Positions 20,322 to 30,609 of a stretch of DNA of 36,626 nucleotides are shown piece by piece (position 1 is the stretch's first letter; the number at the start of each line of letters is the position of its first letter). The stretch is taken from contig LUGL01000060.1 of the NCBI GenBank assembly GCA_002796835.1, positions 1 to 36,626 on the forward strand. Direction: 5' to 3'. The translations under genes and the position numbers were made by a program. The notes beneath the pieces are model-generated. The model saw nothing but the letters and a program-made list of their open reading frames with translations. It was not told the origin of the DNA and made no database searches. This DNA is from Elainella saxicola E1 (lineage in GTDB: Bacteria; Cyanobacteriota; Cyanobacteriia; Elainellales; Elainellaceae).

Positions 20322-21746
20322 GTGGTTACTCGTATTTTGACCGTTCTGGTCATTGGTTGTTTATTATCAGTAGGACTGTTCGCGGGAGAAGCCTTGGCTC
20401 AAACGCCCAGTCCGGCTGAAGCAGCAGCAGCAGCACAGGTTTCAGCAGATACGGGCTATATGCTCCTGTGTTCAGCGCTTGTGTTGCTCATGACCCCTGG
20501 GTTGGCTTTCTTCTATGGGGGGTTTGTTCGATCGCGCAATGTCCTCAACACCCTGATGATGAGCTTTGTGCTGATGCTGGTTGTCGGTGTCACCTGGCTA
20601 TTGTGGGGTTACAGTCTAGCGTTTGCGCCTGGAACTCCATTTATTGGTGGTTTACAGTGGCTCTTCATGAATGGTGTTGGCTTAGAAACCACTGATTACT
20701 TGGTTGGTTCCCAGCCTGAAGCGGTTGTTTCCTATGCACCGACGATTCCTCACCAGGCTTTCATGATTTATCAGGCTATGTTCGCCGTCATCACTCCTGC
20801 TCTGATTTCGGGGGCGATCGTCGAGCGCATGAAATTCAAAGCCTATTTCTGGTTTATCTTGCTCTGGTCAACTATCATCTATGCTCCTCTTGCCCATATG
20901 GTTTGGGGCAAAGGTGGCTTCTTAGGGCTGTATGGCGGCATTGGCGCACTGGACTTCGCAGGTGGAACGGTGGTGCATATTAGTTCTGGGGTTTCAGCGC
21001 TGGTCGCAGCGATCGTGTTGGGCAACCGCAAAGCCTACCCCGATCGGCTGACAGCACCTCACAACGTACCGTTTATTATGCTGGGTGCAGGTTTGCTGTG
21101 GTTTGGTTGGTTTGGCTTCAACGCTGGGAGTGCGCTTGCTGCGGGCGGTTTGGCAACCACCGCTTTTGTGGCAACCAATGCAGGTGCAGCGGCAGCTGGG
21201 CTAGTTTGGATTTTGATGGAATGGGTGCTGATGGGTAAACCAACTGCGGTGGGTCTGGCAACTGGGCTCGTTGCAGGTCTGGTAGGAATTACTCCAGCAG
21301 CCGGATTTGTCACGCCGATGGGTGCTTTGTTAGTTGGCGGCATTACCGCATTCTGCTGTTTCTACGCAATTCGTATCAAAAACAAATTCCAGCTCGATGA
21401 TGCCCTCGACACCTTCCCCGTGCATGGTGTGGGTGGAACTGTGGGTGCGATTTTAACTGGGATCTTTGCGACGACAGAGGTCAATGCTGCGGGTGCAAAC
21501 GGTCTGCTATTTGGTAACCCGGCTCAGTTGTTCAAGCAGTTGGCTGCTGTTGGGATTGCCTATGTGGTTGCAGGGGTTGGCACGTTTGTATTGCTGAAGA
21601 TTCTGCAGGCAATTATGGGATTGCGCGTCACACCAGAAACGGAAACTCAAGGTTTAGATGTGACGGAGCATGTTGAAATCGGTTACGGTGAAGCCGGACT
21701 CGCTGATATGGCGACGACGGGTGCAGTTCATGCTGGCGTCGAATAA
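20322..21746 (+). CDS. amt: Ammonium transporter (Amt family)
   Basis: A 474-residue Amt-family channel protein for ammonium uptake in the cytoplasmic membrane. It begins with a hydrophobic leader ending in EALAQ, typical of cyanobacterial Amt1-like precursors. The mature part follows with DTGYMLLCSALVLLMTPGLAFFYGGFVRSRN, a family signature, and about eleven membrane segments. The second signature is visible in DFAGGTVVHISSGVSALVAA, and the twin-histidine-type residues are His in VHIS and in TFPVHGVGGTVGAI. GTG 20322 is the start, behind the ribosome binding site GAGAGGGA at 20308-20315. A histidine kinase and response regulator follow downstream in the same direction. The cytoplasmic tail after about residue 430 is acidic. 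No canonical NtcA box was found by eye. Confidence 0.95.
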   Translation: MVTRILTVLVIGCLLSVGLFAGEALAQTPSPAEAAAAAQVSADTGYMLLCSALVLLMTPGLAFFYGGFVRSRNVLNTLMMSFVLMLVVGVTWLLWGYSLAFAPGTPFIGGLQWLFMNGVGLETTDYLVGSQPEAVVSYAPTIPHQAFMIYQAMFAVITPALISGAIVERMKFKAYFWFILLWSTIIYAPLAHMVWGKGGFLGLYGGIGALDFAGGTVVHISSGVSALVAAIVLGNRKAYPDRLTAPHNVPFIMLGAGLLWFGWFGFNAGSALAAGGLATTAFVATNAGAAAAGLVWILMEWVLMGKPTAVGLATGLVAGLVGITPAAGFVTPMGALLVGGITAFCCFYAIRIKNKFQLDDALDTFPVHGVGGTVGAILTGIFATTEVNAAGANGLLFGNPAQLFKQLAAVGIAYVVAGVGTFVLLKILQAIMGLRVTPETETQGLDVTEHVEIGYGEAGLADMATTGAVHAGVE

Positions 21747-21778
21747 GCTCAGCATCGAATCAGCTCAATATCGAATCA
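21747..21778 (+). repeat. 16-bp tandem duplication just after amt
   Basis: GCTCAGCATCGAATCA is followed directly by GCTCAATATCGAATCA (14 of 16 bases identical), starting at the first base after the amt stop codon. It lies in the 145-base gap before the histidine kinase gene. Confidence 0.6.
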
Positions 21779-21891
21779 GCGAACCGTTGTAAAATCATTG
21801 CAATTCAAGCTAATCAGGAGTCAGAGCGTGGGAATTAGTTCCTGCCTTCTGGCTCCTGTATGCTTTTGGATAGGGAATAGGGGAAATCATT

Positions 21892-22989
21892 ATGGCTACT
21901 CTGCCGTCGTCTGCAACCACAATGGCTTTCGAACGGAACCGGAATTTCAGCACACTCTGGATCGTCATTGGGTTGTTTGCCACGATTATTGGTTTAGAAC
22001 TGGTGACCCCAGCCGATTATGTCTTCAGCTATCTCTATATTGGACCGATCCTTCTGGCGAACCTGCGGCTCGATCGCAACCTGGCTTTTCAACTCACGCT
22101 GCTGGCCATATTGATGACGCTGGTGAATCTGTGGTTGCCGGGGAGCCATATTGTTACCGTTCCGACGATCGCCAATCGCTTTATTGCAGTACTTGCCATG
22201 CTTATAACGGCAATGTTGAGTTACCGCAATCGTTATTACGAAGAGACGATCGCACAACACCAGGCAAAACTGCAATATCAAGAAAAATTGACCAGCTTGC
22301 GAGAGGATTTCGTCTCCACGTTATCTCACGATCTAAAAACGCCCTTGTTAGGAGCGATCGAAACATTAAAAGCCTTTCAGCAAGACCGATTTGGGGAAGT
22401 TACCATGTTGCAACAGCAAGTGCTTGCCACCATGGTGCGCAGCCATCAGGCGAGTTTGCAGTTAGTTGAGATGGTGCTGGATGTTTATCGCAACGATACA
22501 GAAGGTGTGCGGCTAGAGCGATCGCCCATGAATTTGGTTGAGATGGCTGAACAGGTCGTGAAAATGCTGCATGAGATGGCAACCAGCTACCAGGTTTCGA
22601 TCCATCTGCGTTATGAATCTCGGTTGGATCAACAGTGGGTCAACGGTGACATGCTGCAACTCCAGCGAGTTTTATCCAATCTGTTAATCAACGCTATTCA
22701 CCATTCTCCGATTGATGGGGTGATTGAAATTGATTTAGCAACGCTGCATCCCTTGGGTCAACAAAGGATTTTGGTGATCGATCAGGGACCAGGTATCCAT
22801 CCTGAAGAATTACCCCAGTTATTTGAGCGGTTCTATCAGGGACATAGCGATCGACAGGCGAAGGGTTCGGGGTTAGGGTTATACTTGTCTCGACAGATTG
22901 TGGAAGCCCATGGTGGCAAAATCTGGGCAGAGAATCATGTTCCACGGGGAGCCTGTTTCGGGTTCTGGCTTCCGGCCCTTACACAGTAA
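21892..22989 (+). CDS. Membrane-bound sensor histidine kinase
   Basis: A 365-residue histidine kinase. Residues 20-112 contain three or four hydrophobic segments with only short loops, so there is no sizeable external sensor domain. A coiled-coil stretch (113-135) leads to the HisKA domain with the phosphorylated His146 in STLSHDLKTPLLG. The ATPase domain shows the N box in LSNLLINAIHHSP, the G1 box in VIDQGPGI and the G2 box in GSGLGLYLSRQIVEAHGG. The response regulator gene begins 31 bases after its stop, so the two form a pair. GGGGAAATC before ATG 21892 serves as ribosome binding site. The place directly after amt suggests a nitrogen-related signal, possibly read through the membrane part; this is inference. 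Confidence 0.9.
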   Translation: MATLPSSATTMAFERNRNFSTLWIVIGLFATIIGLELVTPADYVFSYLYIGPILLANLRLDRNLAFQLTLLAILMTLVNLWLPGSHIVTVPTIANRFIAVLAMLITAMLSYRNRYYEETIAQHQAKLQYQEKLTSLREDFVSTLSHDLKTPLLGAIETLKAFQQDRFGEVTMLQQQVLATMVRSHQASLQLVEMVLDVYRNDTEGVRLERSPMNLVEMAEQVVKMLHEMATSYQVSIHLRYESRLDQQWVNGDMLQLQRVLSNLLINAIHHSPIDGVIEIDLATLHPLGQQRILVIDQGPGIHPEELPQLFERFYQGHSDRQAKGSGLGLYLSRQIVEAHGGKIWAENHVPRGACFGFWLPALTQ

Positions 22990-23020
22990 TCACTCCCGTT
23001 GATTTCTCCAGTGATGTCTT

Positions 23021-23665
23021 ATGAATGCTGAGCCTCTCAAAATCTTACTGGTTGAAGACGACGAGCTATTTCGGCTGGGATTGCGGGTTAAGTTACAGCA
23101 GGAAGTCGATGTGGCGATCGTTGCGGAGGCAGCAGATGGCGAAACTGCTGTTCGAATGGTGAATCAGCATCAGCTCGATGCCGTTCTACTCGATATTGGC
23201 CTGCCCCGGATTAGCGGGATTGAAGCCTGCCGTCAGATCAAACAAAAACAGCCACACTTGCCAATTTTGGTGCTGACTTCTCGATCGGGCAAGGCATTGA
23301 TTAATCAATTGCTGGAAGCTGGGGTGCAGGGATATTGCCTCAAGGGAATAAGCGCTGAGCTGCTCGTGTTAGCGCTACGGTCTGTCGTGGCAGGGGCTTC
23401 CTGGTGGGATCAAACCGCAACTGCTGAAATTCATGCGCTGGCCAATTCTAAGACGCCCCCTGAACCCGCTTCGCCGCTCACACCCCGTGAACAGGAAATT
23501 TTGCGGCTCATCACTGCCGGAAAAACGACACAAGAAATCGCGAATACCTTTTATATTACACCTGGCACCGTTCGCGTTCATATTCACGCAATTTTACAAA
23601 AGCTGGAAGTGCGCGATCGAACTCAGGCGGCATTGTTGGCACTTCAGAAGGGATTGATCAGTTAA
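23021..23665 (+). CDS. NarL/FixJ-family response regulator paired with the kinase
   Basis: A 214-residue response regulator. The receiver domain has VEDDELFRLG, the phosphoacceptor Asp58 in LLDIGLPRISG, the conserved Thr/Ser in LVLTSRSG and the Lys in YCLKGIS. The LuxR-type DNA-binding domain shows LTPREQEILRLITAGKTTQEIA and PGTVRVHIHAILQKLEV. It follows the histidine kinase gene by 31 bases and should be its phosphorylation partner. Targets could include amt or the facing gamma-glutamylation operon, but no binding sites are known to me. The operon on the other strand ends only 21 bases downstream, so the two transcription units converge with almost no spacer. Confidence 0.92.
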   Translation: MNAEPLKILLVEDDELFRLGLRVKLQQEVDVAIVAEAADGETAVRMVNQHQLDAVLLDIGLPRISGIEACRQIKQKQPHLPILVLTSRSGKALINQLLEAGVQGYCLKGISAELLVLALRSVVAGASWWDQTATAEIHALANSKTPPEPASPLTPREQEILRLITAGKTTQEIANTFYITPGTVRVHIHAILQKLEVRDRTQAALLALQKGLIS

Positions 23666-23686: not shown

Positions 23687-24460
23687 CTATTCTGCGGTCA
23701 CATAGGCTGCGGTAATGCCACCATCCACCAGGAAGGTCGAACCATTCACAAAAGAAGATTCATCACTGGCTAAAAATAGGGCAGCATTGGCAATTTCAGG
23801 AGCCTGAGCAAAGCGGCCTGGGGGAATATGGACCAAGCGTCGCTGCCGTCGAGCCGGATCGGCCAGAAGTTCGTCTAACAGAGGAGTTTGCACCGGACCA
23901 GGACAGAGCGCATTTGCCCGAATATTTTGACGCGCAAATTCGATCGCAATTTCACGGGTCATGGAGAGCACACCGCCTTTGCTAGCCGTATAGGCAATTT
24001 GTGGAGTTGCAGCACCCATCACCGCCACAAAAGAAGCCGTATTGATAATTGAACCGCCCCCCGATCGCAGCAGGGCCGGAATCCCATATTTGCAGCCAAG
24101 AAATACCCCTTTCAAGTTGATATTAATTGTTAAATCCCAAATTTCCTCTTCGGTATCCAGGACGGAATTATCAGCTCCATGGAAAATTCCAGCATTGTTA
24201 AACAGCACGTTCAATTTACCGTAGGTAGTCTCGGCTGCTGCGATCGCGGCTTTCACCTCCGCACCTTTAGAAACATCGGCTTTGACAAAAATTGCCTGTC
24301 CGCCTGCCGCTTCAATCTGGGAAAGCGTTTCTTTGCCTCCTGCTTCATTCAGATCACAAACAACGACTTGAGCTCCTTCTCTGGCAAACAGCAGCGCAGA
24401 CTCACGGCCAATGCCACTACCCGCACCTGTAATCAATGCCACTTTGTTTTGTAAACGCAT
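23687..24460 (-). CDS. SDR family NAD(P)-dependent dehydrogenase
   Basis: A classical short-chain dehydrogenase of 257 residues. It has the cofactor motif TGAGSGIG at 11-18, Asp38-type acidic residue in VVVCDLNEAGG (favouring NAD), NNAG at 88-91, catalytic Ser143, Tyr157 and Lys161 in YTASK, and the C-terminal NGSTFLVDGG. ATG 24460 is chosen over the in-frame TTG 24466; AAGGA stands eight bases before it. It is the last gene of the five-gene operon, 24 bases behind the amidotransferase hydrolase. In the proposed pathway it would oxidise the alcohol group of a gamma-glutamylated amino alcohol to the aldehyde, the step for which the Puu pathway uses the amine oxidase PuuB. The substrate assignment comes only from context. 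Confidence 0.88.
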   Translation of the reverse strand: MRLQNKVALITGAGSGIGRESALLFAREGAQVVVCDLNEAGGKETLSQIEAAGGQAIFVKADVSKGAEVKAAIAAAETTYGKLNVLFNNAGIFHGADNSVLDTEEEIWDLTININLKGVFLGCKYGIPALLRSGGGSIINTASFVAVMGAATPQIAYTASKGGVLSMTREIAIEFARQNIRANALCPGPVQTPLLDELLADPARRQRRLVHIPPGRFAQAPEIANAALFLASDESSFVNGSTFLVDGGITAAYVTAE

Positions 24461-24484
24461 GATCAATTTCCTTAAATGAATACT

Positions 24485-25204
24485 CTAATAACTTCCTATT
24501 GTTTTCCGTTGAGATGCCGCTGTAATCAACGCCTGAAATAAGCGTTGATGCACTGGGGATTCTGGCGAGAGTTCTGGATGCCACTGCACAGCGACTAACC
24601 AGGGATGGTGCTGATGTTCCAACGCTTCGATCAAACCATCTGCGGCATAAGCAACCGGAGACCAGCCAACAGGCACTGTTTTCACAGCCTGATGATGCCA
24701 GGACACCACTTCAAATTCGATCGCCTCCAGCATTTTAGCTAAACGGCTCTCCGGCTGAGCTTGCACAGGATGGGGAATGGGACGACGGGGATGATCCAGG
24801 CGATGGGCGATCGTCTCTCCATAGACTTCGGGCACATGGGGCACCAGTTCGGCTCCGCTCGCTACACTCAAAACCTGCAGGCCGCGACAAATGCCCAGGG
24901 CCGGAATGTCGGTTGAGAGAATTAGCTGCGCCAAAGCGAGCTCAAAATCATCTCGTTCGGCATCGACTAAATAGATGGTGGAGTGATGCGAGCCACCATA
25001 GCGCTCTGGATCAATGTCGCCACCGCCTGTAAAGACAATGCCGTCCACAATATCGAGAATGCGCTGCGGATTGGGCTGGTTGGGCGGCAGCAAAATTGGA
25101 ATGCCGCCTGCAAGTTGAATGGCATCCACATAGGCACCGGGCAGTGTAAATTCTCCAGCTTCGCTACGGCTGTAGGTGGTGATGCCAATAATCGGCGATT
25201 GCAT
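24485..25204 (-). CDS. Class-I glutamine amidotransferase-like hydrolase (peptidase C26, PuuD-like)
   Basis: A 239-residue protein of the gamma-glutamyl-gamma-aminobutyrate hydrolase group (peptidase C26). It begins PIIGITTYSR, has GIVFTGGGDIDPERYG, the nucleophile Cys106 in ALGICRGLQVL, and the His209/Glu211 pair in VQWHPELSPESP. A histidine-containing segment VVSWHHQAVK precedes these, as in PuuD. PuuD cleaves gamma-glutamyl-GABA to glutamate and GABA; here the natural substrate may be another gamma-glutamyl amino acid. ATG 25204 fits the family N-terminus; the longer frame from TTG 25264 adds a basic stretch with no family support. It lies between the ligase gene (74-base gap) and the SDR gene (24-base gap), so the hydrolysis step is encoded beside the gamma-glutamylation step. 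Confidence 0.88.
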   Translation of the reverse strand: MQSPIIGITTYSRSEAGEFTLPGAYVDAIQLAGGIPILLPPNQPNPQRILDIVDGIVFTGGGDIDPERYGGSHHSTIYLVDAERDDFELALAQLILSTDIPALGICRGLQVLSVASGAELVPHVPEVYGETIAHRLDHPRRPIPHPVQAQPESRLAKMLEAIEFEVVSWHHQAVKTVPVGWSPVAYAADGLIEALEHQHHPWLVAVQWHPELSPESPVHQRLFQALITAASQRKTIGSY

Positions 25205-25278
25205 AGTCACAGTTACTTTTTTCAACGGTGCTTCTAATCCACGAACGAGATGCTTGCGCTTCAAGGGATTTAACTGAA

Positions 25279-26667
25279 TTATGCTCTTTCAAAATATCTG
25301 GCGCGTTCCCAGCTTGTTACTACTTCATCAAACTTACGTTGTTCTGTGCGGAAAAAATGGAGATAGTGATCGATCACGGCATCGCCCAAAATTTGACGGG
25401 CCCAATCGCTTTTTTCTAGTTCTCGGATCGATTCATTCAGGCTAGAGGGAACCTGCGGCAAATCCTGTGCAGCATAAACATCGCCTTCAAACATAGATGG
25501 TGGTTCAATCTGGTGACGAATCCCATCCAGTCCGGCAGCTAAAGTGACAGCAAAGGCAAGATAGGGATTGGCATCGGCCCCTGGAGCCCGACATTCTAGC
25601 CGCAGGGAAGAACCATGGCCCAATACGCGAAATCCCGCCGTACGGTTGTCATAGGACCAGGCGATGCCGGTTGGCGCGAATGACCCAGCAACATAACGTT
25701 TATAAGATGTGGGATAGGGCGCATAAAAAGCAAATACTTCCCGAATATGAGCCATCCAGCCGCCTAAGAACCAGCGAAACAGCGGCGAACTCTGCACCGG
25801 ACCAAACGCTTCCTCGCCCGGGAATAATGCCTGACCTGCCTCATTCCACAGGCTGGCATGTAAATGCATACTCGATCCTGCATAGCGCTCATCCCATTTA
25901 GACATGAACGTGATTGCCACATTATTTTGCCAAGCGATTTCCTTTGCTAAATGCTTGTAGAGAATATGCCGATCGCACATCTCCAAAAAGTCCGTATAGC
26001 GCAAGTTAATCTCCTGCTGTCCCGGTCCCCATTCTCCCTTGGAAAACTCGACTGGAATGCCCGATCGATCGAGGTGTTTGCGAATGTTGCCGATCACAAA
26101 TTCCTCTTTAGTGCCCTGAAAGATGTGATAGTCCTCAATATAGTGGCCGATCGGCTGTAAATCGTGATAGTTCTTGCGGCGTGCTTCTTCATAGGAATCA
26201 GCAAATACATACAGCTCCAGCTCAGAAGCCCCCATAGCTGTATAGCCCATTGATTTTGCCAGTTCTACCTGACGCTGCAAAATACTGCGAGGGGCAATTT
26301 CAACCGGGACATCCTCTTCTTCGTTCAGCAAATCGCAGAGAACGATCGCCGTTTTATCCAGCCAGGAGGCCAGTCTGAGCGTACTTAAATCCGGCACCAT
26401 ATGAAAATCGCCATAGCCACTGGCCCAGCTCGTAAATTGATAGCCTGGAACCGGATCCATTTCCATATCGCAGGCCAATAGATAATCGCAGGCATGAACC
26501 CCGTGAGCCAGCACGTCATTCACGAAGTATTCACCCATAATCCGCTTGCCGATCAGCCGACCGTAGATGTCAGGAAAGACCGTCAGCACCGTTTCAATTT
26601 CCTCTGCTTCAACCATTTGTTTGAGTGTCTCAACAGAGAGCAGTCCTCGTATCTTAGAGTTTGCCAT
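25279..26667 (-). CDS. Glutamine synthetase-like gamma-glutamyl-amine ligase
   Basis: A 462-residue protein of the glutamine synthetase superfamily, PuuA/GlnT-like branch rather than a true ammonia-using GlnA. It would join the gamma-carboxyl of glutamate to an amine with ATP. Residues 1-110 form the beta-grasp part. The catalytic part shows ASELELYVF (149-155, metal ligands), GPGQQEINL (214-222), SSMHLHASLW (265-274), NRTAGFRV (341-348) and RLECRAPGADANPYL (356-370). The adenylylation loop of GlnA is not apparent. ATG 26667 has only a weak ribosome binding site, consistent with translation from an operon message (26-base gap to the aldehyde dehydrogenase). In Streptomyces GlnA4 is a related gamma-glutamylethanolamide synthetase, which fits the neighbouring EutP-like permease; putrescine or another amine is the alternative. 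Confidence 0.9.
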   Translation of the reverse strand: MANSKIRGLLSVETLKQMVEAEEIETVLTVFPDIYGRLIGKRIMGEYFVNDVLAHGVHACDYLLACDMEMDPVPGYQFTSWASGYGDFHMVPDLSTLRLASWLDKTAIVLCDLLNEEEDVPVEIAPRSILQRQVELAKSMGYTAMGASELELYVFADSYEEARRKNYHDLQPIGHYIEDYHIFQGTKEEFVIGNIRKHLDRSGIPVEFSKGEWGPGQQEINLRYTDFLEMCDRHILYKHLAKEIAWQNNVAITFMSKWDERYAGSSMHLHASLWNEAGQALFPGEEAFGPVQSSPLFRWFLGGWMAHIREVFAFYAPYPTSYKRYVAGSFAPTGIAWSYDNRTAGFRVLGHGSSLRLECRAPGADANPYLAFAVTLAAGLDGIRHQIEPPSMFEGDVYAAQDLPQVPSSLNESIRELEKSDWARQILGDAVIDHYLHFFRTEQRKFDEVVTSWERARYFERA

Positions 26668-26693: not shown

Positions 26694-28133
26694 CTATTCT
26701 GCAATAAACACACTTTTGATCTCGCTGTAATGGTCCAGCACATTTAAACCTAATTCACGCCCTAACCCACTCCGCTTGACACCCCCAAAGGGCGCTTCCA
26801 GATGCACACTATGGCCGGTATTAATGGACAGTACTCCGGTTTCGATCGCCTTCGCTACCCGTAAGGCCCGACTGATATCTCTGGTCCAGATGGAACCAGA
26901 AAGACCATAAAAGCTCTGATTGGCAATGGCGATCGCCTCTGCTTCTGTGTCGAACGGGATCGCACAAACGACTGGGCCGAAAATCTCTTCCTGAGCAATC
27001 CGCATTGTGGGAGTGACATCAGCAAAAATTGCAGGCTGGAGATAAGCGCCCGATCGCAGATGTTCCCCTTCAGGGATATAGCCGCCGCACAGCAGTTTTG
27101 CCCCTTCTACCTGACCAATTTGAATATATTCAGCCACCCGATCGCGATGATTTTGGGAAATTAAGCTGCCAATTTCAGTGGATTCATCGAGAGGATGTCC
27201 CAGCTTCAACGTCTGGAATTGCTGCGTGAGTTGCTCCAAGAATGCGTCATAGATCGATCGCTCAATTAGCAGACGCGATCGGGCACAGCAATCCTGTCCA
27301 GCATTTCCCAACACACTCCACATCGCTTTCGGCACAGCTTTCTCTAAATCTGCATCAGCAAAGATCAGGTTGGCTGACTTGCCACCCAATTCCAGCGTCA
27401 CACGCTTAATGTCATCTGCGGCTAGCTTCATGACATGACTGCCAATTTCGGTTGAGCCAGTAAAGGAGATTTTGCGCACCAGCGGATGCCGTACCAACGC
27501 CTCTCCCGCCCGACTTCCCGATCCAGTAACGATATTCAGAACGCCCGGTGGAATGCCTGCGGCTAAGGCTAGCTCTCCTAATTTCAAGGCTGTCAACGGA
27601 GTTTGAGAAGCGGGTTTCAGGACGATTGTATTGCCCATTGCCAGAGCTGGAGCCAGCTTCCAGGCCGTGATCGCGATTGGAAAATTCCAGGGGGCAATTA
27701 ATCCACATACGCCGATCGGTTCTCGGAAGGTGAGGCTGGTTCCAGCAGCGGCAACCGGAATCGTCTGACCCCCCACTTTATTGATCGCCCCAGCATAATA
27801 CTCAAAGCAATCTGCCGCCAAATTCACCTCATCTCTAGCGTCCCGGATCGGTTTGCCAACGTTACGGCTTTCCAGTTCAGCCAAAGACTCCAGATGTTCC
27901 CGGATTAGTTCCGCCAACCGATACAACATGCGGGTTCGATCGCGACTATTCACTTGACGCCAAGGCTGTCGTATCCGATCAGCTGCCTGGACTGCTCGAT
28001 CGATATCAACTGCATCGCCTGCCGCAATTTTGGCCCAGCCTTCTCCCGTCGCCGGATCGATCAGTGAGGTGAATTCACCCGACTGGGCAGGTGTGCGATC
28101 GCCATTAATCAGCAACTCTTCTGTCAACACCAT
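26694..28133 (-). CDS. NAD(P)-dependent aldehyde dehydrogenase
   Basis: A 479-residue aldehyde dehydrogenase of normal length. It shows the cofactor-region PWNFP at 148-152, KPASQTPLTAL, ISFTGSTEIG, the general base Glu248 in LELGGKSAN and the nucleophile Cys282 in GQDCCARSR, then EIFGPVVCAIPF and FGGVKRSGLGRELG near the C-terminus. Relatives include PuuC and betaine-aldehyde dehydrogenases. The start is ATG 28133, with in-frame GTG 28136 immediately before; the permease gene ends just 10 bases upstream, so the two are surely co-transcribed. In the proposed pathway it oxidises a gamma-glutamylated aldehyde to the acid before hydrolysis by the C26 enzyme. Substrate is inferred from the operon only. 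Confidence 0.92.
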   Translation of the reverse strand: MVLTEELLINGDRTPAQSGEFTSLIDPATGEGWAKIAAGDAVDIDRAVQAADRIRQPWRQVNSRDRTRMLYRLAELIREHLESLAELESRNVGKPIRDARDEVNLAADCFEYYAGAINKVGGQTIPVAAAGTSLTFREPIGVCGLIAPWNFPIAITAWKLAPALAMGNTIVLKPASQTPLTALKLGELALAAGIPPGVLNIVTGSGSRAGEALVRHPLVRKISFTGSTEIGSHVMKLAADDIKRVTLELGGKSANLIFADADLEKAVPKAMWSVLGNAGQDCCARSRLLIERSIYDAFLEQLTQQFQTLKLGHPLDESTEIGSLISQNHRDRVAEYIQIGQVEGAKLLCGGYIPEGEHLRSGAYLQPAIFADVTPTMRIAQEEIFGPVVCAIPFDTEAEAIAIANQSFYGLSGSIWTRDISRALRVAKAIETGVLSINTGHSVHLEAPFGGVKRSGLGRELGLNVLDHYSEIKSVFIAE

Positions 28134-28143
28134 CACACCCGAC

Positions 28144-29631
28144 CTATTTACCTAAGGTTTCTGTTGGTTCAATCTCATGCAAAGCCTGCGTCAATAGCGC
28201 ATTTTCTTCTTCAGGTGCTCTGGCCACTAAGCGATGTCGCGAATAGAGGAAGAAATAGACTACCATTGCGCCAACAAACAGGGCCACTCCCCATACACCT
28301 GGTCGATAGCCTGGATCGGCAAAGCAAGCGAATAAAGCGATGACAGCCAGAAGTGCTCCAATCACTGCGCCAGGAATCCCCAACGGACTTTGATAGGGAC
28401 GAGGCAGATCAGGTCGTTTGATTTTGAGCTGAATGTAGCTGATCATGTTGAGGAAATAGGAAATAACTGCAGCAAACACTGCCATATTCAACAAGGCAGC
28501 ACCCACTTCCTTCCCCGCAAATTGAATGGCTGCGGCGCAAGCTAACCCAATGACACCACCAAAAATTAGGGCTAAAGACGGCGTGTGATATTTGCTGGTA
28601 AGGGAAAGCCAGCGAGGAATATAGCCTGCACGAGACAGCGAGAAGAGAACGCGACCATAGCCATAGATGATCGTGTGAAAACTGGCGATCAATCCGCTAA
28701 CTGAAATAATGATCAGCGCATTGGTGAACACGCCTTCACCGAATACGGTCTTAAATCCATCGGCTAAAGGAGCACCCGATTTACCAATCCCTTCTGCACC
28801 AGGGGCAACGCCCGAATTGAGAATCAGGACTAAAAAGGCGAGAATTAGCAAGGTAAAAATGCCCCAGGTCAGGGCTTTAGGCACATCTCGGCCTGAATCA
28901 TGGGCTTCCTCAGCGGCTAAGGGCAGTTGCTCAATGCCCAAAAAGAACCAGATGGCATAGGGAAGTGCAGCTAGAATCCCAGCCGTTCCTTTTGGGAAGA
29001 TGGCAGATTGGCCTGGATCGGGTGGAATGTTGGTGAGCAGGGCGGGATCGAAATGCCCCAAAGCGCCGATATAGAAGATCACTAGTACGCTGGCTGCCAT
29101 CAACGTGATAAACAGCCCGAATTTAAGCGTAATCTCTACCCCAATGATATTGATGCCGACAAAGACCACATAAAATAACACCCACCAGATCGGGACAGGA
29201 ACAGCTTGGAGAGGTCCTAAGGAATTGAGATAGGAGCCGATAAAATACACCACCACTGCGGGGGTGAGAACGAACTCACAGGCATCTGTAATCCCGTTAA
29301 CAAAACCACCAAATGCGCCAAATGCGTTGCGCGTAAAGGAATAGGAGCCGCCTGCATGGGGTAAGGCTGAGGACAATTCGGCGATCGTATATACCATGCA
29401 CACATACATGGTTGCCATCAAAATGGTCGCAACAGCTAATCCCCAAAAGCCGCCTGCCGCCAATCCTAAGTTCCAGCCGGAAAACTCACCGGAAATCACC
29501 GCGCCAACGCCCAGTGCCCATAACAAAATCCAGCCTGCACTGCGACGCAATCGTCGTTTCTCTAAATAACTATCATCCACCTGCTCATACCGTACCATCC
29601 CTTGACGATACGGATCCTGATTGTTGCTCAT
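28144..29631 (-). CDS. APC family permease, ethanolamine-permease (EutP)-like
   Basis: A 495-residue amino acid/polyamine/organocation transporter with about twelve hydrophobic segments. After a 30-residue charged N-terminus it reads LGVGAVISGEFSGWNLGLAAGG, which matches my memory of the EutP-type ethanolamine permeases more than amino acid permeases such as PuuP. Further family marks are TIAELSSALPHAGGSYSFTRNAFG and LPYAIWFFLGIEQLPLAAEE. The gene heads the five-gene operon; its promoter lies in the 210-base region shared with the divergent FadR-type regulator, which contains a perfect 22-bp palindrome. The cargo is thus probably ethanolamine or a similar small amine. Sure for the family, moderate for the substrate. 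Confidence 0.88.
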   Translation of the reverse strand: MSNNQDPYRQGMVRYEQVDDSYLEKRRLRRSAGWILLWALGVGAVISGEFSGWNLGLAAGGFWGLAVATILMATMYVCMVYTIAELSSALPHAGGSYSFTRNAFGAFGGFVNGITDACEFVLTPAVVVYFIGSYLNSLGPLQAVPVPIWWVLFYVVFVGINIIGVEITLKFGLFITLMAASVLVIFYIGALGHFDPALLTNIPPDPGQSAIFPKGTAGILAALPYAIWFFLGIEQLPLAAEEAHDSGRDVPKALTWGIFTLLILAFLVLILNSGVAPGAEGIGKSGAPLADGFKTVFGEGVFTNALIIISVSGLIASFHTIIYGYGRVLFSLSRAGYIPRWLSLTSKYHTPSLALIFGGVIGLACAAAIQFAGKEVGAALLNMAVFAAVISYFLNMISYIQLKIKRPDLPRPYQSPLGIPGAVIGALLAVIALFACFADPGYRPGVWGVALFVGAMVVYFFLYSRHRLVARAPEEENALLTQALHEIEPTETLGK

Positions 29632-29772: not shown

Positions 29773-29794
29773 TAAGGTCTAACGTTAGACCTTA
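29773..29794. promoter_or_regulatory. 22-bp perfect palindrome, probable operator of the FadR-type regulator
   Basis: The left half TAAGGTCTAAC is followed without spacer by its exact reverse complement. It sits between the divergent permease and regulator genes, 47 bases before the regulator start. Regulators of the FadR/GntR group bind short palindromes with GT and AC in the half sites, which fits. The palindrome overlaps the expected -35 area of the regulator promoter, suggesting autorepression as well as control of the operon. Confidence 0.7.
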
Positions 29795-29810
29795 GAGATT
29801 TCGTTATACT
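29782..29810 (+). promoter_or_regulatory. Probable promoter of the FadR-type regulator gene
   Basis: TATACT at 29805-29810 is a good -10 hexamer. Seventeen bases upstream, 29782-29787 (ACGTTA) would be a poor -35 and lies inside the 22-bp palindrome. The start codon follows 31 bases after the -10 box. Confidence 0.45.
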
Positions 29811-29841: not shown

Positions 29842-30609
29842 ATGCCTACCAATCCTGATCTGAATCAGCCGAATGCCCAAGTGTCTGGATTTAGTGCTGC
29901 CGAAGCGTTAATTCGCAATTCCAGGTCCACAGCCAATGCCTATGAAGTGACCGTCGAACGCCTCAGTGCCGCGATCAAAATGGGATTGTATCGTCCAGGA
30001 GAACAGTTGCCGCCCGAACGGGAGATGGCAGAATTGATGGGTGTTAGTCGCACCACGTTACGGGAAGCCATTCGCGTATTGGCGGCCCAAGGATTCTTGC
30101 TGGTTCGACGCGGCAGGCAGGGGGGAACTTTCGTGGCAGAGACGTTGACGCTGCCCAATGTGCTGGAACTGAAGCATCAGCTCTTGCAGTCCGGAGCGAG
30201 CCTCCGCGAAATTTTGGATTATCGGTTGGTGGTGGAAATGGGCATAGTCGAACTGGCAGCCCAACGGGCCAATAGTCAGCAAATTCAAGAATTACAGACC
30301 TTGATTGATCAGATGGAAGGGGCGATCGATCGATTCAGCGAGTATCGTCGGCTGGACACTGAGTTTCATATTTTGATTGCTCGATCGACCCAATCGCAGC
30401 GGCTTACCTCTGTGGTTGCGGGCATCCATGCTGAATTCTCTGATCTGCTGGCTGTGATTCCCCATAGTCCAACTGCCTGCTGTTATTCTACACAGCAACA
30501 TCAGCAAATTTTGGATGCGATTCAGGCAGGCAACGCCGAGTTAGCTCGATCGTTAATGCAAATCCATGTTACCGGAACAAACAGTCTGCTAAATGGATTG
30601 CTGGGTTGA
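29842..30609 (+). CDS. FadR-subfamily GntR transcription regulator
   Basis: A 255-residue regulator. After a 33-residue Asn/Ala-rich lead, the winged helix-turn-helix (about 36-102) shows the GntR pattern GLYRPGEQLPPEREMAELMGVSRTTLREAIRVLAAQG with the wing VRRGRQGGTFV. The FCD ligand-binding domain (about 115-250) has LREILDYRLVVEMGIVELAA, the Asp and His of RRLDTEFHILIA, and further His residues in QQHQQILDAI and IHVTG that normally hold a metal ion and a small carboxylate. It is divergent from the permease-led operon, with a perfect palindrome between them, and is almost certainly its local regulator. The effector might be a pathway intermediate such as a gamma-glutamyl amino acid; this is inference. 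Confidence 0.93.
   Translation: MPTNPDLNQPNAQVSGFSAAEALIRNSRSTANAYEVTVERLSAAIKMGLYRPGEQLPPEREMAELMGVSRTTLREAIRVLAAQGFLLVRRGRQGGTFVAETLTLPNVLELKHQLLQSGASLREILDYRLVVEMGIVELAAQRANSQQIQELQTLIDQMEGAIDRFSEYRRLDTEFHILIARSTQSQRLTSVVAGIHAEFSDLLAVIPHSPTACCYSTQQHQQILDAIQAGNAELARSLMQIHVTGTNSLLNGLLG

Follow-up and report, generated by a model that had tools for sequence, protein, structure and literature searches.

The window analysed here, a stretch of 36,626 nucleotides from the cyanobacterium Elainella saxicola E1, carries an operon of five minus-strand genes that diverges from a regulator gene on the plus strand. The first gene of this operon encodes an ethanolamine permease (28144..29631; TIGR00908 with 395.3 bits, cut-off 381.75) and is followed by those of an aldehyde dehydrogenase (ALDH; 26694..28136; PF00171), a glutamine-synthetase-like (GS-like) ligase (25279..26667; PF00120), a class-I amidotransferase-like (C26) gamma-glutamyl hydrolase (24485..25264; PF07722, 2.4e-55), and a short-chain dehydrogenase (SDR; 23687..24466; PF13561). 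The ligase scores under the cut-offs of all four NCBIfam families that it matches and is probably a gamma-glutamylethanolamide synthetase, a function assigned by analogy with the GlnA4 cluster (PMC6529630). All five genes of a GlnA4-type gamma-glutamylation set (GS-like ligase, SDR, ALDH, gamma-glutamyl hydrolase, and permease) are present in the operon, and together with the identity of the permease this gene set suggests that the route works on ethanolamine. According to the available text of the same report, the glnA4-epuRI region of Streptomyces likewise combines an SDR, an ALDH, a gamma-glutamylethanolamide synthetase, an amidotransferase, and a putative permease (in several species), and the gene upstream of glnA4 encodes, in opposite orientation, the regulator EpuRI that represses glnA4 (PMC6529630). 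That system is actinobacterial, however, and is likened to the window operon by gene content rather than by sequence comparison. At its far end, the operon is adjoined by genes for an ammonium transporter, a histidine kinase, and a LuxR-type response regulator (20322-23665).

The divergent regulator gene (29842..30609, plus strand) encodes a GntR/FCD protein of the FadR subfamily with 255 amino acids, in which an N-terminal GntR winged helix-turn-helix (PF00392, 3.6e-18) and a C-terminal FCD domain (PF07729, 2.3e-25) both score above the gathering thresholds. None of the best 25 of its 27 NCBIfam matches exceeds the family cut-off, and the best is the NanR subfamily model with 108 bits against a cut-off of 260. 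The AlphaFold2 model (mean pLDDT 82) predicts seven helices after the winged helix-turn-helix (residues 107-254), which would place the regulator in the FadR group with its seven C-terminal helices rather than in the VanR group with six (PMC7797058). Among the best 50 PDB matches in Foldseek are NanR, LldR, and FadR with E values of 1e-9 to 1e-6 and query TM-scores of only 0.36-0.56, suggesting that the model matches known structures at the level of the fold only.

Relatives of the regulator at E 1e-45 or better were found in 12 of 388 genomes of the class, the window's own included, in a class-wide search that scored the six best candidates per genome; searches of the families f1 (36 genomes, E 1e-30) and f16 (42 genomes, E 1e-45) scored all candidates. 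Ten of the 12 were aligned for residue invariance, with G133 left out of all protein alignments (broken frame on a contig that ends shortly upstream) and G020 left out of this one (broken frame). Glu59, Arg60, Arg70, Thr72, Arg74, and Gly91, which from FadR and LldR motifs we take to be DNA-contact residues, are invariant in all ten. The same is true of Asp172, His176, and His196, which together with the nearly invariant His220 and His242 presumably form a metal-type FCD pocket, as judged from these motifs and an alignment to LldR. Ligand binding by DgoR is reported to be metal-dependent (PMC7674646). Regulators from four genomes of family f16 resemble that of the window more (64-70% identity) than do the regulators of its own family f1 (at most 58%), a possible sign that the module was transferred horizontally.

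A perfect palindrome in the divergent promoter

The starts of the permease gene (29631, minus strand) and of the regulator gene (29842, plus strand) are separated by an intergenic gap of 210 bp. As an earlier note on this DNA had described, the gap holds a perfect 22-bp palindrome, TAAGGTCTAACGTTAGACCTTA, with arms of 11 bases and no spacer (29773-29794). It lies 47 bp upstream of the regulator gene's ATG and 141 bp upstream of that of the operon. Based on its own sequence and its orthologous versions, we propose this palindrome as an operator composed of a left half-site GGTCTA on the plus strand (29776..29781; GGTNYR in general form) and a right half-site that reads GGTCTA on the minus strand (29786..29791), of which the GGT and the ACC, respectively, are the same in all nine sites compared (see below).

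The palindrome is the longest perfect spacer-less one found in the window, where the runner-up has arms of eight bases. Arms of at least 11 bases appeared in three of 300 windows simulated with a first-order Markov model, and the analytic expectation is 0.009 per window or 5e-5 for the 210-bp gap, while the same arithmetic gives about two such palindromes per 8.7 Mb. The claim that it is not expected by chance is thus no more than suggestive from these figures; what decides that the palindrome is real is the near-palindromic version that four other genomes have at the corresponding position.

A probable -10 box of the regulator gene, TATACT (29805..29810, plus strand), begins 10 nt past the palindrome, with TATACTTT aligning in four of the five orthologous gaps. 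The three of four orthologues that share this box have it at other distances from their palindromes, i.e., 23 nt in G218 and G235 and 24 nt in G224. No good -35 hexamer for the regulator gene was found in the window's gap, and a sigma-70 scan gave no promoter. The proposed overlap of the palindrome with the regulator's -35 area therefore fits by position relative to the TATACT box but lacks a recognizable hexamer.

Palindrome versions at the loci of regulator relatives

Four genomes, G218, G235, G224, and G325, encode regulators that are 64-70% identical to that of the window in the same divergent layout, with the operon of G325 cut by the end of its contig. Absence of the palindrome at orthologous loci had been named beforehand as a result that would speak against an operator, and all four gaps carry a version of it: TAAGGTTTAGTATTAGACCTTA in both G218 and G235, TATGGTTTAACATTAGACCTTA in G224, and TATGGTCTAACATTAGACCTTA in G325. 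When the five gaps are aligned, conservation is mostly confined to the palindrome; elsewhere it is poor, with the exception of the TATACT box in four of five. The number of independent events is small because the four orthologues all come from one taxonomic family. Three more distant loci from metagenome-assembled genomes, found by a contig scan at 29-45% identity, were not used in the comparison.

Regulator relatives in sister groups, which we defined by identity, are associated with a related site. The relatives at 55-56% identity, in G007 and G029, carry the sister form AAWGGTAYR-N4-YRTACCWTT. In G007 it reads AAAGGTACAATTCTGTACCTTT and separates the regulator from a copper amine oxidase-permease operon. 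G029 has it twice, as AATGGTATGAAGTTGTACCATT before an amidotransferase-regulator pair and as AATGGTACGATTTCATACCATT in the gap that separates the regulator from a permease-GS-like pair. A fourth site, AATGGTACGATTCCATACCATT, lies in G002, where it is flanked by homologues of the amidotransferase and PhyH genes of G029; no regulator was found in this genome, which is 69% complete. Across all nine sites the common core is WAWGGTNYR-N4-YRNACCWTW, in which A2, GGT, ACC, and T21 are the same in nine of nine.

The gene content of these loci differs from that of the window. In G007 (L021, 4096-7770), a regulator relative of 56% identity stands divergent to the copper amine oxidase-permease pair with the sister operator between them; judging from this locus, the role of the regulator branch in amine catabolism seems to be a broader one. 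The G029 locus (L023, 5096-11735) clusters two PhyH dioxygenases, the amidotransferase, the regulator, the permease, and the GS-like gene with its sister operators, while at the G002 locus (L034) only PhyH genes and the amidotransferase were seen together with the sister operator.

Not every relative comes with a site. By the criteria used, none was found for the intact regulator relative of G246 (57% identity), and no intact site adjoins the regulators of G020 and G133, whose frames are broken, or of G030, whose frame is short (L026, L027, and L025). G031 and its congener G030 have only versions with two mismatches, at aligned places before an ALDH gene; these are two matches in 1,625 bp as opposed to one in 180,019 positions of regulator-free loci, in a comparison that was made post hoc.

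These sites bear on two readings that do without a DNA-binding protein. About 1% of simulated windows (the three of 300 above) contain a comparable palindrome, so that a functionless chance occurrence has some statistical footing in the window itself, but its conserved position in five genera from two families, together with the sister form in promoters next to relatives of the regulator, leaves this reading with practically no credence. Alternatively, the palindrome could act as an RNA or DNA structure such as a hairpin or an intrinsic terminator, and a terminator-like pattern was indeed flagged on the plus strand (one found, 0.3 expected). However, no gene terminates at this place because both neighbours are transcribed outward, the run of T after the palindrome is absent in the four orthologues, no Rfam match was obtained up to E 1, and the sister sites in other promoter gaps have altered inner bases with constant edges, which makes a structural role extremely improbable.

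Target searches, regulator-free operons, and NtcA

The degenerate pattern of the window-type sites, WAWGGTYTARNNYTARACCWTW, occurs in six of the 388 class genomes, i.e., the five with the divergent layout and G159, where the match precedes a gene unrelated to the operon, and its reversed control occurs in one. The sister-type pattern AAWGGTAYRNNNNYRTACCWTT is found in three of 388 genomes (G007, G029, and G002; reversed control one of 388). Both patterns were written from the known sites, whose own presence is thus given by construction, so only their rarity elsewhere is informative. Fisher values, being circular for the source genomes, were not counted as evidence. Each of the five divergent-layout genomes has one exact match and none with one mismatch, and matches with up to two mismatches are fewer than those of the reversed control in every one of them (4 versus 21, 8 versus 10, 6 versus 8, 9 versus 11, and 2 versus 6). 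These counts indicate that the operator is local. The earlier expectation of a searchable operator that would lead to further targets of the regulator was consequently not borne out, and the proposed search of the genome with the half-site TAAGGTCTAAC was uninformative, with two other single places and fewer than for the reversed control. The exact palindrome, with up to three mismatches allowed, occurs a single time in the genome. A wider regulon was rejected on the basis of this single occurrence and of a degenerate pattern that does not rise above its control; judging from these searches, the regulator is most likely a local, single-target one with one operator in the genome.

Sister-type matches with one mismatch are at noise level in the eight genomes searched (seven versus five for the reversed control). 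When 19 loci of weaker or sister-type matches, a part of all matches, were compared with the proteins of the operon and of its relatives, only that of G002 was linked, and two more matched generic proteins. G030 and G031 share a sister-type site with one mismatch that adjoins genes unrelated to the operon and that we take as unlinked.

With a threshold of E 1e-180, the GS-like gene was found in 20 of 388 genomes, and we fetched the loci (5.8 to 17 kb) of the 12 GS-like genomes without a regulator match along with the GS-like contig of G031. No regulator was found in any of these 13 loci (tblastn, 1e-6), and the 12 regulator-free loci contain no palindrome with exception of one weak match with two mismatches in G042. 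The locus of G025 keeps the permease (82% identical), ALDH, GS-like, SDR, and C26 genes with neither regulator nor palindrome there, and the only match of this genome to a regulator-relative query is 28% identical and lies elsewhere. At least the ALDH and GS-like genes are kept in G019, G018, G050, and G035, while some or only one of the operon genes were seen at the other seven loci. The palindrome therefore goes with the regulator, not with the operon, and loci lacking both regulator and site serve as a natural control.

Some of these fetched loci have signaling genes nearby. In G025 (L085, 4464-10978), the opposite strand upstream of the operon carries a gene for a large hybrid histidine kinase/response regulator. 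In G035 the GS-like and C26 genes flank a gene for a sensor kinase whose sensor domain is of the PDC/Cache type (L094, 5578-7545), and the G031 locus (L097) has a kinase match at the same place. The G035-type kinase may take over amine sensing.

A different protein that could bind the palindrome is NtcA, with recognition sites of GTAN8TAC or relaxed GTN10AC, which would place the operon under general nitrogen control. The GT-N10-AC within the palindrome has the spacing of the NtcA box and is the most conserved part among 508 NtcA ChIP sites (PMC3898017), the pathway feeds nitrogen, GTA-N8-TAC is exact in all four sister sites, and those of G029 and G002 that precede the amidotransferase have a TAN3T 21 nt on in a class-II layout. 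The window-type sites themselves, however, do not have these features. GTAN8TAC occurs in none of the five (the window's core is GTCTAACGTTAGAC, reading GTC...GAC), and TAN3T at 20-24 nt, the class-II placement (about 22 nt downstream), is found in none of their ten directions versus two of eight for the sister type. NtcA sites favour A/T beside the core, as given by position numbers in the available text of the ChIP study (PMC3898017), whereas all nine sites here have G and C (GGT...ACC). Moreover, NtcA was found in all 12 genomes tested (11 above the cut-off, and split in two pieces in G018), among them G025, G019, G050, G035, and G018 that have operon genes and neither regulator nor palindrome in the fetched locus, while the 22-bp pattern is confined to six of 388 genomes. 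NtcA as the binder of the window's palindrome is thus disfavoured by regulator-free loci in genomes with NtcA and by the missing GTAN8TAC and TAN3T, and we consider it improbable for a site that follows the FCD regulator. By contrast, NtcA may also bind the sister sites facing the amidotransferase, where GTAN8TAC and TAN3T at 21 nt make it possible and count against control by one regulator.

Operator geometry and proposed control

From its sequence and place, its conservation at orthologous loci, its co-occurrence with the regulator rather than the operon, and the sister form beside relatives, the palindrome is very likely the operator of the adjacent FCD/GntR regulator, in agreement with the earlier note's view of it as a site of the neighbouring FadR-subfamily protein. 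As a control element it would be of an ordinary kind. The GT-N10-AC spacing of its half-sites is unusual for the family of the regulator and mildly new.

In all nine sites, 10 nt separate the conserved GT from the AC. By comparison, a survey of 36 FadR-subfamily groups gives a typical distance of 3 nt, or 2 nt in several groups, with NanR and BioR as the exceptions that it names (PMC4494728); a GT and AC 2-3 nt apart at the centre are not present in the palindrome. No cyanobacterial FadR-subfamily member appears in the available text of this 2015 GntR survey (PMC4494728), and among the matches listed in our literature search there was no paper on a FadR-subfamily ethanolamine regulator of cyanobacteria. 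Like the systems of FadR, PdhR, and LldR, that of the window combines GntR and FCD domains and conserved presumptive contact residues with inverted GT/AC half-sites in a divergent promoter, but differs from them in having these 10 nt rather than typically 3 or 2 nt apart (PMC4494728). Its half-site GGTNYR resembles the GGTATA of the E. coli NanR operator, (GGTATA)3, where the units are direct repeats (PMC8012715, PMC4494728) as opposed to the inverted half-sites seen here. A parallel in layout is the VanR-like FadR-subfamily member Ms0535 of Mycobacterium smegmatis, for which a 26-bp palindrome was described in the promoter of regulator and permease genes and no second site was found in the genome (PMC4609117). 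The sequence of that palindrome is unrelated, with two CCTTGCATGCA arms and a 4-bp spacer, and Ms0535 is a reported activator with regulator and permease in one operon (PMC4609117).

As a refinement of the operator assignment, two regulator dimers might bind, each to one half, in the manner of composite long FCD operators. Both halves of the window's palindrome have a GT-N3-AC core of their own, GTCTAAC and GTTAGAC, which fits the common spacing of the subfamily (PMC4494728) and resembles the AlkR core GTCAGAC (PMC12042122), and one such core is also held by the G029 site before the amidotransferase. NanR uses several GGTATA units with one dimer each (PMC8012715), and the authors of the Ms0535 study suggested that its 26-bp palindrome is bound in two steps (PMC4609117). 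It is the existence of long family operators and of two adjacent GT-N3-AC cores in the window that keeps this reading alive. However, the inner GT/AC are poorly conserved, with a left core in three of five and a right core in one of five window-type sites (in the regulator's direction) and in zero and one, respectively, of the four sister sites as listed, while the outer GGT/ACC are constant in nine of nine. We therefore regard binding of two dimers as possible yet doubtful.

Whether as a dimer or as a pair of dimers, the regulator of the operator assignment that we prefer would read the two inverted GGTNYR half-sites at a centre-to-centre distance of 10 bp, about one helical turn. Bound regulator would cover or adjoin its own -35 region and sit upstream of the permease operon, a position from which it would repress both in the absence of substrate, and the operator thus probably serves repression. 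Release would follow when a metabolite from the gamma-glutamyl route for ethanolamine binds; the likeliest candidate is a carboxylate, for example gamma-glutamylethanolamide, held in the metal-type FCD pocket.

On a more general level, we only tentatively suggest that a cyanobacterial FCD/GntR branch for amine catabolism reads inverted NanR-like half-sites, GGTNYR-N4-YRNACC, in neighbouring major grooves one turn apart instead of GT-N2-3-AC, and that the operator of one sub-branch has come to contain GTAN8TAC so that NtcA could compete for it. The locus provides a defined and compact candidate regulator-operator pair for the use of ethanolamine by cyanobacteria, and its half-site spacing, if true, would mean that the FCD scaffold is able to adopt a different DNA-binding geometry.
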